DNA from: Candidatus Reidiella endopervernicosa
GTDB taxonomy: Bacteria; Pseudomonadota; Gammaproteobacteria; GCF-013343005
Reading direction: 5' to 3'
Length of the DNA stretch: 64,000 nucleotides
NCBI RefSeq assembly: GCF_013343005.1
Contig: NZ_CP054491.1
Span: forward strand, 868,001 to 932,000
Position numbers and translations under genes: made by a program. Shown here piece after piece: positions 21,138-28,127 of the stretch (positions are counted from its first letter, which is position 1; the number at the start of each line of letters is the position of its first letter). Under the pieces are notes generated by a model, which worked only from the letters and a program-made list of their open reading frames with translations, made no database searches and was not told where the DNA came from.

Positions 21138-22295
21138 GTGAAGGATCTTTCAGTCGCGCTGCAGCAGCGACGAGAGCAGCAGCTTTATCGACAGCGGCAG
21201 GTCGTCGAGAGCCCGCAGAGCCCGGCTATGGTGGTCGATGGTCGTAAGGTGCTCACTTTCTGTAGTAACGACTACCTTGGTCTCGCAGACCACCCCGATC
21301 TGATTGCCGCATTCAAACGAGGGGCCGATCAATATGGGGTTGGCAGCGGTTCTGCTCATCTGGTCAACGGCCACAGCCGAGCCCATCACGAACTCGAAGA
21401 GGCGCTGGCCGATTTTACTGGCCGTCCGCGCGCACTGCTCTTTTCCACCGGATATATGGCCAATCTCGGTGCCGTGACGGCACTGATGGGGAGAGGGGAT
21501 GCGATCTTTGAAGATCGTCTCAACCACGCCTCTCTACTCGATGCTGGATTGCTCTCCGGTGCTCGCTTTAAACGCTACCCACATGGTGATTGTGCTGCGT
21601 TAGCGAAGATGCTGGGGGATAGTGGCCAGGCAGAGCGCATGGTGGTCAGCGATGGTGTTTTCAGTATGGATGGTGCGATCGCCCCGGTAACGGAGTTGGC
21701 CACTACGGCTAAGCTCCACGATGCCAGCTTGATGATCGACGATGCACACGGTTTTGGTGTGCTCGGAGAGCATGGCGGTGGTGTGGCTGAGCAGTACGGA
21801 CTCGATATGGCACAGTTGCCGATCTTGATGGGCACCCTGGGCAAGGCGTTTGGTACGGCGGGTGCTTTTATTGCCGGTAGTGAAGCGCTGATCGAGACGT
21901 TGATCCAGTTTGCGCGTAGTTATATCTACACCACTGCGCAGCCACCAGCCATTGCAGTAGCTACACTGGCGAGCCTGCAGATTGTTGTTACGGAAAATTG
22001 GAGGCGGGAGAAACTGAAGGGGTTGATTACCCGATTTCGACAGGGTGCCCAGGAGCTAGGGCTCGACCTGATGCCATCGGAGACACCGATACAGCCGATC
22101 CTGCTCGGAAGCGCAGAGCGTGCACTCGCAGTAAGTGAATCACTGTGGCAGCAGGGCATACTGCTGACAGCCATCCGTCCCCCCACCGTTCCAGCTGAGG
22201 GTTCACGCCTGAGGGTCACGCTCTCGGCGCGTCACAGCGAGGCCGATGTAGACCAGTTACTCTCAGTGCTGGAGAGGAGCGTGGTCAGTGGCTGA
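21138..22295 (+). CDS. bioF: 8-amino-7-oxononanoate synthase
   Basis: A 385-residue PLP enzyme that condenses pimeloyl-ACP with L-alanine. Motifs: [49 protein letters not shown] and the PLP lysine in [17 protein letters not shown] start seven bases after the bioB stop; the end overlaps bioH. Confidence 0.97.
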
Positions 22296-23052
22296 ACTCT
22301 CTATCAAGACGATGGGTGCTGGAAGGGCGTTGGTGATGCTGCACGGCTGGGGTATGCACGGCGGTATCTGGGGCTCGATTACCACACGATTGGCGCAGCA
22401 GTTCCAGCTCCATATCGTCGATCTTCCGGGGCATGGTCGAAGTAGCCTTGAAGGTGAGTTCACCCTGGATCGAGTTGTTGAGCGTCTTGCTGCGAGCCTG
22501 CCTGAGGAGGCGATCTGGCTCGGCTGGTCTCTAGGCGGTCGCATAGCGATGGCTGCGGCTGTTGCAGGTGTCCCGATCTCCAGGCTGATACTGGTGGGTG
22601 CCAATCCCTGTTTCACCAAACGAGAAGGGTGGTCGCACGGCATGGATGATGAGCTGCTGGGGCAATTTGCTGAGCAGTTGCGGGATGATTGCCGGGCTAC
22701 CCTGCTCCGTTTTCTGGTGCTGCAGTCACGTGGCTCCGAGCAGGGGCGTGAGGAGATGCGTACGTTGCGCGGTGAACTCTTCAGTCGTGGTGAGCCGACC
22801 CCTGCGGCATTGGCGGGAGGATTGGAGGTCCTACGTCACGCCGATTTGAGAGCAGATCTCTCCAGGATCAACCAGCCGACTCTAGTGATTCAGGGGGAAA
22901 ACGATACACTGGCCCCGCTCGGAGCGGGTGAATACACATGCTCTGAGATTCCCACTGCACAGCTATCGGTCATTGCGGGTGCCGGGCATGCGCCCTTTCT
23001 TTCTCATCCTGATGCATTTATAGCGGCAATTAAGGAGTTCTTGAGTGACTAA
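22288..23052 (+). CDS. bioH: Pimeloyl-ACP methyl ester esterase BioH
   Basis: A 254-residue alpha/beta hydrolase that removes the methyl group from pimeloyl-ACP methyl ester and so ends chain elongation. [11 protein letters not shown] (oxyanion side), [14 protein letters not shown] (nucleophile Ser in GWSLGG), Asp in [13 protein letters not shown] and the catalytic His in [14 protein letters not shown] start; overlaps bioF by 8 bases and bioC by 8. Confidence 0.95.
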
Positions 23053-23917
23053 GTTGCTGGATGATAAGCAGATCGATAAACAGCAGCTCCGCTCCGCCTT
23101 TAACCGCTCTGCAGAGCGATATGATGAGGTGGCAGTTCTACAACGTGAGGTCGCCTCGCGCATGCTTGAGCGCCTTGAGCTGGTAAAGATCGAACCCAAG
23201 ACGATTCTCGATCTGGGTACGGGAACGGGTCAGTGTGTGCAGTGGTTGATGAAGCGCTATCGCAAGGCGAAGGTGATCGGCCTCGATCTGGCTGAGGCGA
23301 TGTTGCCGCGAGTTCGTGCGCATGGCTCACTGTTGAGAAAGCCGGGGCTTGTCTGTGGTGATATCGAGAGGCTGCCACTGGCCGATAAAAGCGTCGACCT
23401 GATTGTCTCCAGTCTGGCGCTGCAGTGGATGAACAGTATCGATGAGGCCTTTGCTGAGATTGCTCGAGTGCTCAGGCCTGGGGGGCTGTTGATGTTTACC
23501 ACCTTGGGTCCCGACACGCTCAAGGAGCTGCGCCTCAGCTGGGAGGCGGTTGATAACGGCAGCAGTCATGTGAACCGGTTTCTCGATATGCACGATGTCG
23601 GTGATGCGCTGATGCAGGCCGGTTTTGACGGGCCGGTGGTCGATATCGAACACATGGTTGTTACCTACGATAAGGTGAGTGGCCTGATGTCTGATCTAAA
23701 GACGCTCGGCGCTCACAACGTCACCTCGGGGCGCTCCAGAGGCATGACCGGCAAAGAGCGTCTGAAGATGATGTGTGAGGCCTATGAGCAATTTCGCGAT
23801 AGCAGTGGCAAGCTCCCAGCGACATACGAGGTGGTCTATGGCCACGCCTGGGCGGCTGAGGCTGTTCCAGAGGGTGGGAGCGTGGTGCAGATCCCAATAG
23901 ATCAGATAAAGCGTTAA
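23045..23917 (+). CDS. bioC: Malonyl-ACP O-methyltransferase BioC
   Basis: A 290-residue SAM-dependent methyltransferase that starts pimelate synthesis by methylating malonyl-ACP. N-terminal FNRSAERYDEVAVLQREVA, SAM motif ILDLGTGTGQCVQWL, then LPLADKSVDLIVSSLALQW and VLRPGGLLMFTTLGPDTLKEL, all typical of BioC. GTG start overlapping bioH. The bioH/bioC pair is the E. coli-type route. Confidence 0.96.
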   Translation: MTKLLDDKQIDKQQLRSAFNRSAERYDEVAVLQREVASRMLERLELVKIEPKTILDLGTGTGQCVQWLMKRYRKAKVIGLDLAEAMLPRVRAHGSLLRKPGLVCGDIERLPLADKSVDLIVSSLALQWMNSIDEAFAEIARVLRPGGLLMFTTLGPDTLKELRLSWEAVDNGSSHVNRFLDMHDVGDALMQAGFDGPVVDIEHMVVTYDKVSGLMSDLKTLGAHNVTSGRSRGMTGKERLKMMCEAYEQFRDSSGKLPATYEVVYGHAWAAEAVPEGGSVVQIPIDQIKR

Positions 23918-23998
23918 CCGATGGTTGGTTGTTCTGGTTTTGCACCTCCTATCCGATAATTGATTACGCCATATAGATGTTTCTGCTGAGGTGAGCTT

Positions 23999-24676
23999 AT
24001 GTCCGGCTATTTCGTGACGGGTACCGATACCGAGGTTGGCAAGAGTTTAGTTGCGACCGCACTGGTACACGCCTTTGCCGAAAATGGCGGCTTGATTGGT
24101 GTGATGAAACCCGTCGCTGCGGGTGCGATTGAGACAGCTGAGGGGCTACGCAATGGTGATGCCATCGCCCTGCAGAACGCCGCCAGCATCTCGCTCCCTT
24201 ATGAGCTGATCAATCCCTACCTCTATAACGACTCCATCGCCCCCCATATTGCCGCTAACCAGAGTGGTCGGACGATCGAGTTGGCACAGCTGGTCGATGC
24301 CTATCTGCAGGTTAGTGATCGTGCAGACCGGGTGGTGGTTGAGGGGGCCGGTGGCTGGCTGCTACCAATCGATGATGAGCTGACCCTGGCCGATTTTGTG
24401 GTGGCGTTGCAGCTGCCTGTCGTGGTGGTGGTGGGTCTACGGCTGGGGTGTCTCAATCACGCACTGCTGACGATCGAAAGCATTCAACAGCGTGGTTTGA
24501 CGGTGGCTGGCTGGGTTGCCAACAGTCTAATGCCACAGATGGAGGTTGAGCAGCAGAATATCGATACCCTCGTTCAGCGTATCTCGGCACCGCTGTTGGG
24601 AAGGGTGCCGTTTAACCCCGACCATACGTTAGAGTCAGTGGCAGCTTGCCTCGATCTATCTCTTCTGCCGGTATAG
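23999..24676 (+). CDS. bioD: Dethiobiotin synthetase
   Basis: A 225-residue enzyme that closes the ureido ring using CO2 and ATP. P-loop VTGTDTEVGKSLVATAL, substrate segment GVMKPVAAGA, VVEGAGGWLLPIDD and GLRLGCLNHALLT. Separated from bioC by 81 bases but in the same direction, with a terminator directly after, so it probably ends the operon. Confidence 0.96.
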   Translation: MSGYFVTGTDTEVGKSLVATALVHAFAENGGLIGVMKPVAAGAIETAEGLRNGDAIALQNAASISLPYELINPYLYNDSIAPHIAANQSGRTIELAQLVDAYLQVSDRADRVVVEGAGGWLLPIDDELTLADFVVALQLPVVVVVGLRLGCLNHALLTIESIQQRGLTVAGWVANSLMPQMEVEQQNIDTLVQRISAPLLGRVPFNPDHTLESVAACLDLSLLPV

Positions 24677-24739: not shown

Positions 24740-25597
24740 TCAGGTCAGCGCATTACGCAGCTTTTTGATCGCATTGTTCTCCAGCTGTCGAATCCGCTCC
24801 GCTGAGATGCCGTACTGATCGGCTAGCTGGTGCAGGGTCGATTTCTGCTCGCTCATCCAGCGCTGGGAGAGGATGTCACGACTGCGATCATCAAGTCCCT
24901 GCAGGGCGGCTTGTAGTCGTTCGGAGTTGTGACTCTCCCAGTCGGTCGCCTCGACCTGGCGTGCCGGATCGGTTGCGTTGTCTTGCAGGTAACTTTCGGG
25001 TGCGACATAGCGACTATCATCGTCATCATTGTCGTTCTCGAAGGTGATGTCGTGGCCGCTGAGGCGTGACTCCATCTCGAGCACGGTCTCCTTTTTCACG
25101 CCAAGATCGCTTGCAACCGCTTCAACTTCGTCGTTGCTGAACCAGCCGAGGCGCTTTTTGTTTTTGCGCAGATTAAAGAAGAGCTTACGCTGTGCCTTGG
25201 TGGTTGCTACCTTTACGATGCGCCAGTTGCGCAGCACAAATTCGTGGATCTCCGCGCGAATCCAGTGCACAGCGAAGGAGACCAGGCGCGCACCCTGATC
25301 GGGATCGTAGCGTTTGACTGCCTTCATTAGACCGATATTGCCCTCCTGTACCAGATCGCCTATTGGCAGGCCGTAACCGGAGTAGCTGCGTGCGATATGG
25401 ATCACAAAACGGAGGTGGGAAAGTACCAGTCGGCGTGCGGCCTCAAGATCACCCTCATTCTTCAGGCGTTGGCCGAGCTCACGCTCCTCTTCCACGCTGA
25501 GTACAGGAATCGTCTTGGCGCTCTGGATATAGCTCTCAAGACTACCCGACGAAATGATCGGTAACGAATTGTTGGTACAGACTAAGGCCTGGCTCAT
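24740..25597 (-). CDS. rpoH: RNA polymerase sigma factor RpoH (sigma-32)
   Basis: A 285-residue heat-shock sigma factor. Region 2 holds [39 protein letters not shown] and the sigma-32 segment [18 protein letters not shown], followed by the RpoH box region ([13 protein letters not shown]). Region 4 helix-turn-helix: [19 protein letters not shown]. Only 39 bases separate its start from a CIRCE operator, suggesting HrcA control in place of, or in addition to, the E. coli RNA thermometer. Confidence 0.96.
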
Positions 25598-25635
25598 GCG
25601 CCCCCCTTCAAATAACTGACTAACCTAGTGAGATA

Positions 25636-25662
25636 TTAGCACTCTCATCCTAGGAGTGCCAA
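25636..25662 (-). promoter_or_regulatory. CIRCE operator (HrcA site) upstream of rpoH
   Basis: TTAGCACTC, 9 bases, GAGTGCCAA. The consensus is TTAGCACTC-N9-GAGTGCTAA, so 17 of 18 arm positions match and the spacer is exact. It lies between the stop of the upstream minus-strand gene and the rpoH start. Confidence 0.9.
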
Positions 25663-25666
25663 TAAG

Positions 25667-27055
25667 CTAAGAAGTTCCGCCTCGTGCGTCAAGTGTTGGG
25701 GGAGTATTTACGGATAGGGTGATCGCCTCAATACCCTGTTGGGTATAGATACAGCACTGGTTACGACCACGACTCTTCGCCTCGTATAGGGCCTTGTCGG
25801 CGAGCGAGAGGAACTTCGATAGTGACTGATCTGGGTGATCGAGGGTGGAGCAGATGCCGATGCTGGCGGTGATCTCGATATCGACAGGTCGTAACCGCTC
25901 CACCGCAAGACGCAACGTTTCCGCCCGTGCAACGGCCTCTTCTCGGCTGCAGTTAGGGATTAAGACTGCAAACTCCTCACCACCGAAGCGTACGACCATC
26001 GAATCCTTGGGAAAGCTCTGTAGCAGTAGTGTGCCGAGCGCTTCGAGTACACGGTCGCCGGTGATGTGGCCCAGGGTGTCGTTGATCTGTTTGAAGTGGT
26101 CGATATCGAGCAGCATCGCCCAGAGTGGTTGATTGCGCTGGTTATTGAGGAAGTCCTCGCCATTATCGAGTAGGTAGCGCTTGTTGCGCACCCCGGTGAG
26201 CATGTCGGTGATGGCGAGGTGGTGGAGTTTCTCGGCCTGGCGTCTCAGTGCGCTGAACTGCTGTTTGATCAGCAGCAGTGAGCGCAGTCGAGCCATCAGG
26301 ATCTCTTCAACAATCGGCTTACTGACGAAGTCGTTGGCACCGGCGTGAAACACCTCCACCTGGCGTTCGTCACTGGTACTGCCAGTAATCACCAGTACTG
26401 GCATCTCCTGTTGGGAGAGGTTGAAGCGGGTGCGGATCGCGTGCAGCAGGTCACCACCGGTCATCGAGCCCTTGAGAAAGAAGTCGGTAATGACGATATC
26501 GAACGGATCGCGGTAGCGTGGTCCACCCGGTAGGCACTCTTTTAGTAGCTCGAACGCCCCCTCAGCAGATTCGACCTGAGTGATGCGCAGCCCATGGCGT
26601 TGCATCATCTGACCATTCACGGCGGCTGCGGTGGCGCTGTCCTCAACGTATAGCGCATGACCCTCGAGCCGACTCTGGCGGTGAGTGAAGCGTTTGATGA
26701 ACTGGGCAAAACCGCTATATCCGCGGCTCTTGTCATAGTAGTCGGTGACACCGGCGGCAAAACCCTCGCGTAGTAGTCGGCCGTCGGCATCACCGGAGAT
26801 AACGATGAGCGGGGTGAAACGGTGTTTGTCACTGCCGCGAATCTGACGACAGAGCTCCAGTCCATCGATATCGGGAAGCATCAGTGAGGTGGTGATCAGG
26901 TCGAATTCTGCCTGCTGTAGCTGCTGGTTGGCCTCAGCGGCATTGGCGCAGACAGTTATATCAGCATCATCAAGCTGATCGTTGAGACTGCGGCTGATGA
27001 TGGTACGAGAGACCTCGGAGCCATCCACAACCAGAATACGGGTGGTTTCACTCAT
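25667..27055 (-). CDS. Two-receiver response regulator with GGDEF diguanylate cyclase
   Basis: About 462 residues. I take the start at MSETTRILVVDGSEVSR because GGAGGGG precedes it. First receiver at ~1-120 (phospho-Asp region LITTSLMLPDIDGLEL), second at ~125-245 (VEDSATAAAVNGQMM, DIVITDFFLKGSMTGGD). GGDEF domain at ~290-450 has LDIDHFKQINDTLGHITGD and the active-site loop RFGGEEFAVLIPN (GGEEF). It should make cyclic di-GMP in response to phosphorylation. The first receiver's Asp position reads MLPDIDG, with the usual acidic pocket partly altered (VVDGSE instead of VDDSE). Next to but not overlapping ftsX. Confidence 0.9.
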   Translation of the reverse strand: MSETTRILVVDGSEVSRTIISRSLNDQLDDADITVCANAAEANQQLQQAEFDLITTSLMLPDIDGLELCRQIRGSDKHRFTPLIVISGDADGRLLREGFAAGVTDYYDKSRGYSGFAQFIKRFTHRQSRLEGHALYVEDSATAAAVNGQMMQRHGLRITQVESAEGAFELLKECLPGGPRYRDPFDIVITDFFLKGSMTGGDLLHAIRTRFNLSQQEMPVLVITGSTSDERQVEVFHAGANDFVSKPIVEEILMARLRSLLLIKQQFSALRRQAEKLHHLAITDMLTGVRNKRYLLDNGEDFLNNQRNQPLWAMLLDIDHFKQINDTLGHITGDRVLEALGTLLLQSFPKDSMVVRFGGEEFAVLIPNCSREEAVARAETLRLAVERLRPVDIEITASIGICSTLDHPDQSLSKFLSLADKALYEAKSRGRNQCCIYTQQGIEAITLSVNTPPTLDARGGTS

Positions 27056-27149: not shown

Positions 27150-28127
27150 TTAACGAGGTTCGATGGCACGCAGGTGGCGACCGACCGCGATCTGCGAGCC
27201 GAACAGACCGAGCAGTGCCCCTGCGCCGAGCAGTGCGCCGGTGGTGGTGAGGTCGAGTTGGGGAGGTGCAAGTGTGCTGTGGTAGAGGCCAATGAGACGC
27301 GTGGCAGGGCCTTCAAGTAGCCATAGGGCAATGCCGACCAGCAGCACAGCGGCAAAGCCACCGCAGAGGCCGTACCAGAGGCCACCGTAGAGGAAGGGGC
27401 GGCGGATGAAGGCATCGGTGCCACCGATCAGTTTAATAATCTCGCTCTCTTCCCGACGGTTCTGTACATCGAGGCGAATGGTATTGCCGATCACCAATAG
27501 CACCGCCAGGGTGAGCAGCGCAGCAATTATGGTGACAGCGCGCTGCCCGAGCGCCATCAGCGAGTGGAGTCGCTGTACCCAGGCCATGTCGAGCTGTACC
27601 AGCTCTGCTTCCGGTTCACTGCGAAATGAGTTGACCAGCTGATCGATCATCAGCGGATCGTTCAGATGGGCGGCAGGAAGAACCACGACTACTGCAGGTA
27701 GAGGGTTTTCTGGCAGTGCATCAATCGCCTGTTCGAATCCGGAGAGATTACGGAACTCCTGCAGTGCGCTGTCACGAGAGATCGTCTCCACAGAGGCGAT
27801 GTCGCTGTTCTGTTCTAATTGGTCGATCAGTGATCGAGAGTCGGCGTGCTGCAGATCGTGTTTGAGAAATATTGAGATCTGAGCTGCTCCCTCAAGGTTG
27901 CTACCAAGCGGCTGCAGGGTGGTCAGAATGGTGAAAAGCCCCGCAGGTAGTGCCAGGGCAATGCCGATTACCGCAATGGTCATCAGCGCTGAGAAGGGGG
28001 TGTTGAGCAGCGGATCGAGGCCGGTATGGAAGGCGTCACGGTGGTTGCGTAGCCAGCTGTCGATACGGCCGGCGGGGCGAGCGGTGCTGGCCCCTTCGCT
28101 GCGACGACTCTGCTCTTTTCGACTCAT
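27150..28127 (-). CDS. ftsX: Cell division protein FtsX
   Basis: A 325-residue membrane partner of FtsE with one N-terminal helix, a periplasmic domain (AQISIFLKHDLQHADSRSL, FEQAIDALPENPLPAVVVV) and three C-terminal helices (LEGPATRLIGLYHS between them). The FtsEX complex activates peptidoglycan hydrolases at the septum. The start overlaps the ftsE stop by 4 bases. Confidence 0.94.
   Translation of the reverse strand: MSRKEQSRRSEGASTARPAGRIDSWLRNHRDAFHTGLDPLLNTPFSALMTIAVIGIALALPAGLFTILTTLQPLGSNLEGAAQISIFLKHDLQHADSRSLIDQLEQNSDIASVETISRDSALQEFRNLSGFEQAIDALPENPLPAVVVVLPAAHLNDPLMIDQLVNSFRSEPEAELVQLDMAWVQRLHSLMALGQRAVTIIAALLTLAVLLVIGNTIRLDVQNRREESEIIKLIGGTDAFIRRPFLYGGLWYGLCGGFAAVLLVGIALWLLEGPATRLIGLYHSTLAPPQLDLTTTGALLGAGALLGLFGSQIAVGRHLRAIEPR

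Follow-up and report, generated by a model that had tools for sequence, protein, structure and literature searches.

The 64-kb stretch of Candidatus Reidiella endopervernicosa DNA analyzed here, referred to as the window, carries an inverted repeat in front of rpoH, the gene for the heat-shock sigma factor sigma-32. The repeat is a controlling inverted repeat of chaperone expression (CIRCE), the predicted operator of the repressor HrcA, and candidate promoter elements overlap it. The genes and elements of the locus are listed below in the direction of rpoH transcription.

25667..27055, minus strand: upstream gene, a two-receiver response regulator with a GGDEF domain (reading frame and domain matches)
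25672..25678, minus strand: candidate -35 element of the sigma-E type, GGAACTT, which shares bases with the final codons (GGTS-stop) of the GGDEF gene (sequence; position conserved in relatives)
25657..25662, minus strand: candidate sigma-70-type -35-like hexamer TTGGCA, within the left CIRCE arm (promoter scan)
25651..25655, minus strand: candidate sigma-E-type -10 element TCCTA, made up of the terminal TC of the left CIRCE arm and spacer bases 1-3, 16 bases after GGAACTT (sequence; spacer base 3 is A in 99/109 composites, described below)
25636..25662, minus strand: predicted HrcA binding site (CIRCE), TTGGCACTC-N9-GAGTGCTAA (direct sequence, 17/18 arm bases)
25633..25638, minus strand: candidate sigma-70-type -10 hexamer TAATAT, made up of the right CIRCE arm end and 3 further bases (promoter scan; comparison of hexamer base 6)
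24740..25597, minus strand: rpoH, heat-shock sigma factor sigma-32 (TIGR02392, 413 bits; NF005143, 438 bits)

The minus strand of 25636-25662 reads TTGGCACTC-CTAGGATGA-GAGTGCTAA (left arm, spacer, right arm). As the first-pass annotation had reported, 17 of the 18 arm bases match the consensus TTAGCACTC-N9-GAGTGCTAA and the spacer is exactly 9 bases. The sole mismatch is an A to G change at base 3 of the left arm, and the right arm is perfect. The annotation was also right to place the element close upstream of rpoH, but the gap between the operator and the ATG is 38 bp and not 39. The identity of the gene is well supported, as its product scores 413 bits against a TIGR02392 equivalog cut-off of 323. 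No other CIRCE match with up to 3 mismatches was found in the window, where shuffled sequence gave a mean of 0.03, and a simple calculation puts the chance of a match with at most 1 mismatch at 8e-10 per position, or about 4e-7 per 500 bp.

The host genome, a single 3.45-Mb contig that includes the window, was searched for the regulators and for further operators, as the first-pass annotation had proposed. It had named the absence of hrcA as the finding that would overturn its reading; hrcA is present (PF01628, E 7e-65), and the HrcA_DNA-bdg domain was also detected. A canonical rpoE was found as well (TIGR02939, 303 bits, above the curated cut-off), followed by a gene for an RseA_N protein, an anti-sigma factor. 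Both regulators implied by the rpoH site, HrcA and sigma-E, are therefore encoded in the host genome. Allowing up to 3 mismatches, there are three CIRCE sites genome-wide, located before groES-groEL (0 mismatches), hrcA-grpE-dnaK-dnaJ (1 mismatch), and rpoH (1 mismatch). A reversed-pattern control likewise gave 3 matches at this setting, so it is the small number of mismatches per site and the locations of the sites, not the loose count, that support CIRCE. No convincing sigma-32 site emerged from a consensus scan upstream of groES, hrcA, and rpoH: of 300 shuffles, 195, 23, and 300, respectively, scored at least as high as the best match. We accordingly make no claim that sigma-32 drives groE in this host.

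Next, we considered the promoter elements that coincide with the operator. When rpoH sites were aligned on the palindrome, GGAACTT was seen about 9 bp upstream of CIRCE. The consensus of sigma-E promoters is GGAACTT and TCnnA, and the E. coli rpoH promoter P3 was taken as the yardstick. In the host, GGAACTT-N16-TCCTA fits the sigma-E (ECF02) promoter criterion of a GGAACTT -35 element and a TCnnA -10 element about 16 bp apart, and GAACT-N17-TCGTA, which has the same layout, lies upstream of the host rpoE. The pattern GGAACT-N16-18-TCnnA occurs twice in the 64 kb (both strands), and one of these matches is exactly at the rpoH CIRCE. The promoter scan also found TTGGCA-18-TAATAT, which scores 9/12 against the sigma-70 promoter and has a TG before the -10 (extended -10). 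Across rpoH sites, a TG-preceded TAATAT or TAAAAT arises from the right arm and the 3 bases that follow it, at 18 bp from an upstream TTGGCA or TTAGCA. At rpoH, then, the operator doubles as a predicted promoter, with the putative sigma-E -10 embedded in CIRCE and the putative extended sigma-70 -10 continuing out of its right arm. The first-pass annotation did not notice this overlap of the operator with predicted sigma-E and sigma-70-type promoters, which would make envelope stress a third input.

Conservation of this arrangement was examined in 80 rpoH loci collected by protein similarity. CIRCE was found within 500 bp upstream of rpoH in 41/80 loci at up to 4 mismatches and in 40/80 at up to 2, and among the nearest genomes 16 of the 24 with an rpoH match (host excluded) carry it. 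For the statistics on individual elements and bases we used a set of 57 rpoH CIRCE sites chosen by rpoH protein only (40 from named genomes, 17 from relatives) and a control set of 38 CIRCE sites (35 at groES, 3 at hrcA). The 57 sites replaced an earlier set of 158 rpoH sites because the latter included sites picked by the composite pattern. Repeat fetches of the same site were removed from the 238 sites first found before counting, and 5 of the 238 that lacked an assigned gene (L111, L275, L276, L280, L212) were omitted; according to their reading frames, L111 and L280 precede hrcA.

Of the rpoH sites, 32/57 have a GAAC at 16-18 bases upstream of the embedded TC, vs 0/38 groES or hrcA sites. 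The start of GAAC is sharply positioned, being at -15 in 25 of the 57, at -16 in 6, and at -14 in 1, and every other position within 80 bp was occupied at most twice. Spacer base 3, which would complete the sigma-E -10, is A in 30/32 rpoH sites with GAAC vs 8/25 without it (Fisher 1.4e-6; this and the other Fisher values treat related genomes as independent and so overstate certainty), and in 5/38 controls. At position 6 of the -10 hexamer, 55/57 rpoH sites have T, vs 4/38 groES or hrcA sites (Fisher 6e-19). The sigma-E element also persists where the operator is absent, as 21 of 29 inspected rpoH loci without CIRCE, enterics and Pseudomonas included, have GAAC[TC]-N16-18-TCnnA within 200 bp.

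A survey of 369 genomes of the host's class was conducted with the composite pattern GAACT-N9..12-TNGCACTC-N9-GAGTGCTA. The composite was found in 109/369 genomes and 79/272 genera, and the reversed pattern gave 0 matches in the same 369 genomes. The gap is the same in 93/109 composites; spacer base 3 is A in 99/109, whereas T occupies the mirror position in only 38/109. With the host site included, 108/109 composites adjoin rpoH. Among the 108 outside the host, 106 were placed at rpoH by an automatic rule, and L246 lies there too, although its arms, with more than 2 mismatches, kept it from being recognized by the rule.

Several variants of the element were seen in these collections. In one genome (L212), the sigma-E and CIRCE composite precedes a gene for a Clp_N protein, read as clpB. 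Another genome has a tandem pair of CIRCE before rpoH (L314/L318), with GGAACTT at composite spacing from the upstream copy. The purple sulfur bacteria Rhabdochromatium (L275) and Thiohalocapsa (L276) have CIRCE beside HSP20 genes; hrcA is present in them and their rpoH lacks CIRCE. In Xanthomonadaceae-like genomes the arm has drifted from GCACTC to GCAGTC both at rpoH (L061, L048, L034, L060) and at groES (L297, L301, L302), and in L061 the change is symmetric, occurring in both arms. This parallel drift suggests altered HrcA specificity.

The presence of hrcA largely goes with that of the site. Among 50 of the 80 named genomes, hrcA was found in 18/21 with CIRCE at rpoH and 7/29 without it, although one of those 29 loci has no upstream sequence (L039) and another has only about 135 bases (L067). 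A second comparison covered 149 genomes of the class, in which 38/41 with the composite have hrcA vs 68/108 without (Fisher 2e-4). The relationship is strictest in the family of Pseudoalteromonas luteoviolacea, which we take to be Alteromonadaceae. Only 6 of 39 genomes there have hrcA, the same 6 have CIRCE at rpoH, and none of the other 33 has either (P. luteoviolacea itself is represented by L050/L112 in this count). At up to 2 mismatches, the CIRCE matches of these six genomes are confined to the rpoH region, and their fetched hrcA loci contain none even when up to 5 mismatches are allowed. HrcA thus seems to have a single strong target in these genomes, rpoH, the groES upstream regions having been compared at up to 2 mismatches only. 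Two further genomes of the family have a 2-mismatch CIRCE away from rpoH and no hrcA. Since hrcA is present in this family exactly where rpoH has CIRCE, HrcA most likely gates both rpoH promoters, although we infer its binding and repression from sequence. In P. luteoviolacea, hrcA (L303, minus strand, 1911-2852) is flanked by nadK-like and grpE-like genes, and two HrcA proteins of the family have diverged strongly (E 1e-11 and 1e-7).

Taken together, these data make it probable that 25636-25662 is an HrcA operator fused with the rpoH promoter, at which HrcA would exclude both holoenzymes. Sigma-E RNA polymerase would start rpoH from GGAACTT-N16-TCCTA under envelope stress, and the housekeeping holoenzyme would use TTGGCA-N18-TAATAT. 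By analogy with other promoters, transcription is predicted to begin near 25645 for sigma-E and near 25627 for sigma-70. Because each -10 region falls inside the palindrome or at its border, HrcA bound there should cover them and exclude both forms of the enzyme. When misfolded proteins occupy GroEL, HrcA would become inactive, the operator would be freed, and rpoH could be transcribed, strongly if sigma-E is free simultaneously and otherwise at the basal sigma-70 level. Titration of HrcA by GroEL occupancy is a model stated for other bacteria in the available part of PMC6032397.

A number of observations weigh against this mechanism. GAAC at proper spacing is missing from 25/57 rpoH CIRCE sites, many of which belong to Burkholderiales, and an input from sigma-E is thus not found everywhere. 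The host has TCCTA as its -10, and another form is commoner. The A at spacer base 3 could be kept for another reason, though it is associated with GAAC. The 7/29 genomes that carry hrcA without CIRCE at rpoH mean that HrcA does not require an rpoH target. Conversely, three genomes with the composite gave no HrcA family match; one of these (G074) is 62% complete, and the other two (G162 and G196; L304 and L305) are 98-99% complete.

A rival reading is that the element is a plain HrcA operator that represses one housekeeping promoter, with the sigma-E resemblance being incidental in this host. In its favor, the sixth hexamer base is T in 55/57 sites while 25/57 lack GAAC at the proper distance, and the host TTGGCA-18-TAATAT scores 9/12 with its TG. 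An incidental resemblance would, however, have to place one of just two GGAACT-N16-18-TCnnA matches in 64 kb exactly at the site, and 109 genomes conserve, along with GAACT, both the spacing and spacer base 3. We therefore consider this explanation unlikely. Much less probable is a role for CIRCE chiefly in transcripts coming from the GGDEF gene, as a roadblock to them or as part of a 5' leader; that gene is on the same strand, with its stop codon 4 bp before the operator and a gap of 69 bp to rpoH, but the promoter elements are fixed to the operator and conserved in loci of many genera. The two nearly complete genomes with the composite and no HrcA match would suit a relic or another regulator's site that HrcA does not use, which we find the least credible reading, as hrcA tracks the site and the host still has hrcA, with matching operators both before it and before groES.

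The wiring first proposed for the host needs refinement. The link between HrcA and rpoH that the first-pass annotation drew gained support, being conserved in relatives and tracking hrcA presence, and the predicted HrcA control of rpoH stands. Its linear two-step cascade does not, since HrcA operators are also present at groES and hrcA-dnaK, and the circuit would be a fan-out or feed-forward one. On a broader scale, the rpoH promoter of many beta- and gamma-proteobacteria may integrate three inputs through a single palindrome that acts as HrcA operator, sigma-E -10, and extended sigma-70 promoter. This would be the older layout, E. coli P3 would be the remainder after loss of HrcA and CIRCE, and rpoH would be the last HrcA target in some Alteromonadaceae. 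We see the arguments for and against this proposal as evenly balanced, and the remnant status of P3 is an inference. If many HrcA-bearing beta- and gamma-proteobacteria do gate rpoH by a GroEL-sensing repressor seated on a sigma-E promoter, a single short DNA element would integrate stress in the cytosol with stress in the envelope, and the E. coli rpoH scheme would be a derived special case.

The surrounding genes show two further features. The GGDEF response regulator gene, whose last codons contain the candidate sigma-E -35, intervenes between rpoH and ftsX (27150-28127, named from its reading frame); the two are directly adjacent in E. coli (NC_000913). On the other side, a plus-strand gene run (21138-24676), presumably the biotin synthesis genes bioF, bioH, bioC, and bioD, ends 63 bp from the rpoH end.

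Known systems share parts of this arrangement. The groESL and hrcA-dnaK CIRCE sites use the same operator and repressor as the rpoH site, but CIRCE at groES lies 22-162 bp before the start and lacks the embedded promoter signatures, with GAAC in none. A 2003 survey (Permina and Gelfand) reportedly may already list CIRCE sites at rpoH. In Geobacter sulfurreducens, CIRCE was predicted in 2004 upstream of rpoH, at position -51, and, as in the host, also at groESL and hrcA-grpE-dnaK-dnaJ (PMC545781). Given this prediction, as stated in the part of that paper available to us, the bare link between CIRCE and rpoH is not new in kind. G. sulfurreducens differs from the host in being a delta-proteobacterium, and the available text mentions no sigma-E promoter within the operator (PMC545781). 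Helicobacter pylori resembles the host in having HrcA operators close to or overlapping core promoter elements, near or over the -35 and -10, where GroE raises HrcA binding; there, as far as the available text goes, the target is not rpoH and the promoter is not of the sigma-E type (PMC6032397).

E. coli, the textbook case of rpoH control, lacks HrcA to our knowledge. Its rpoH is preceded by GAACT-N17-TCTGA, a stretch that we take to be P3 and that shares the GAACT-N17-TCnnA layout with the host. In K-12 (NC_000913) this stretch is 120 bp before the start and, unlike the host element, has no CIRCE (best match 8 mismatches). The E. coli promoter rpoHP3 is described as sigma-E dependent in the available part of PMC3490749. 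The same source reports that Bordetella SigE transcribes its own rpoH promoter in vitro, so that rpoH of B. bronchiseptica (fam) resembles the host gene in being under a sigma-E-type factor, there shown by in vitro transcription; it differs in that the words CIRCE and HrcA are absent from the main text (PMC3490749). No report of a CIRCE and sigma-E promoter fusion was found in the openly licensed literature searched. Within that literature, the fusion of CIRCE with the rpoH sigma-E promoter is the new element here.
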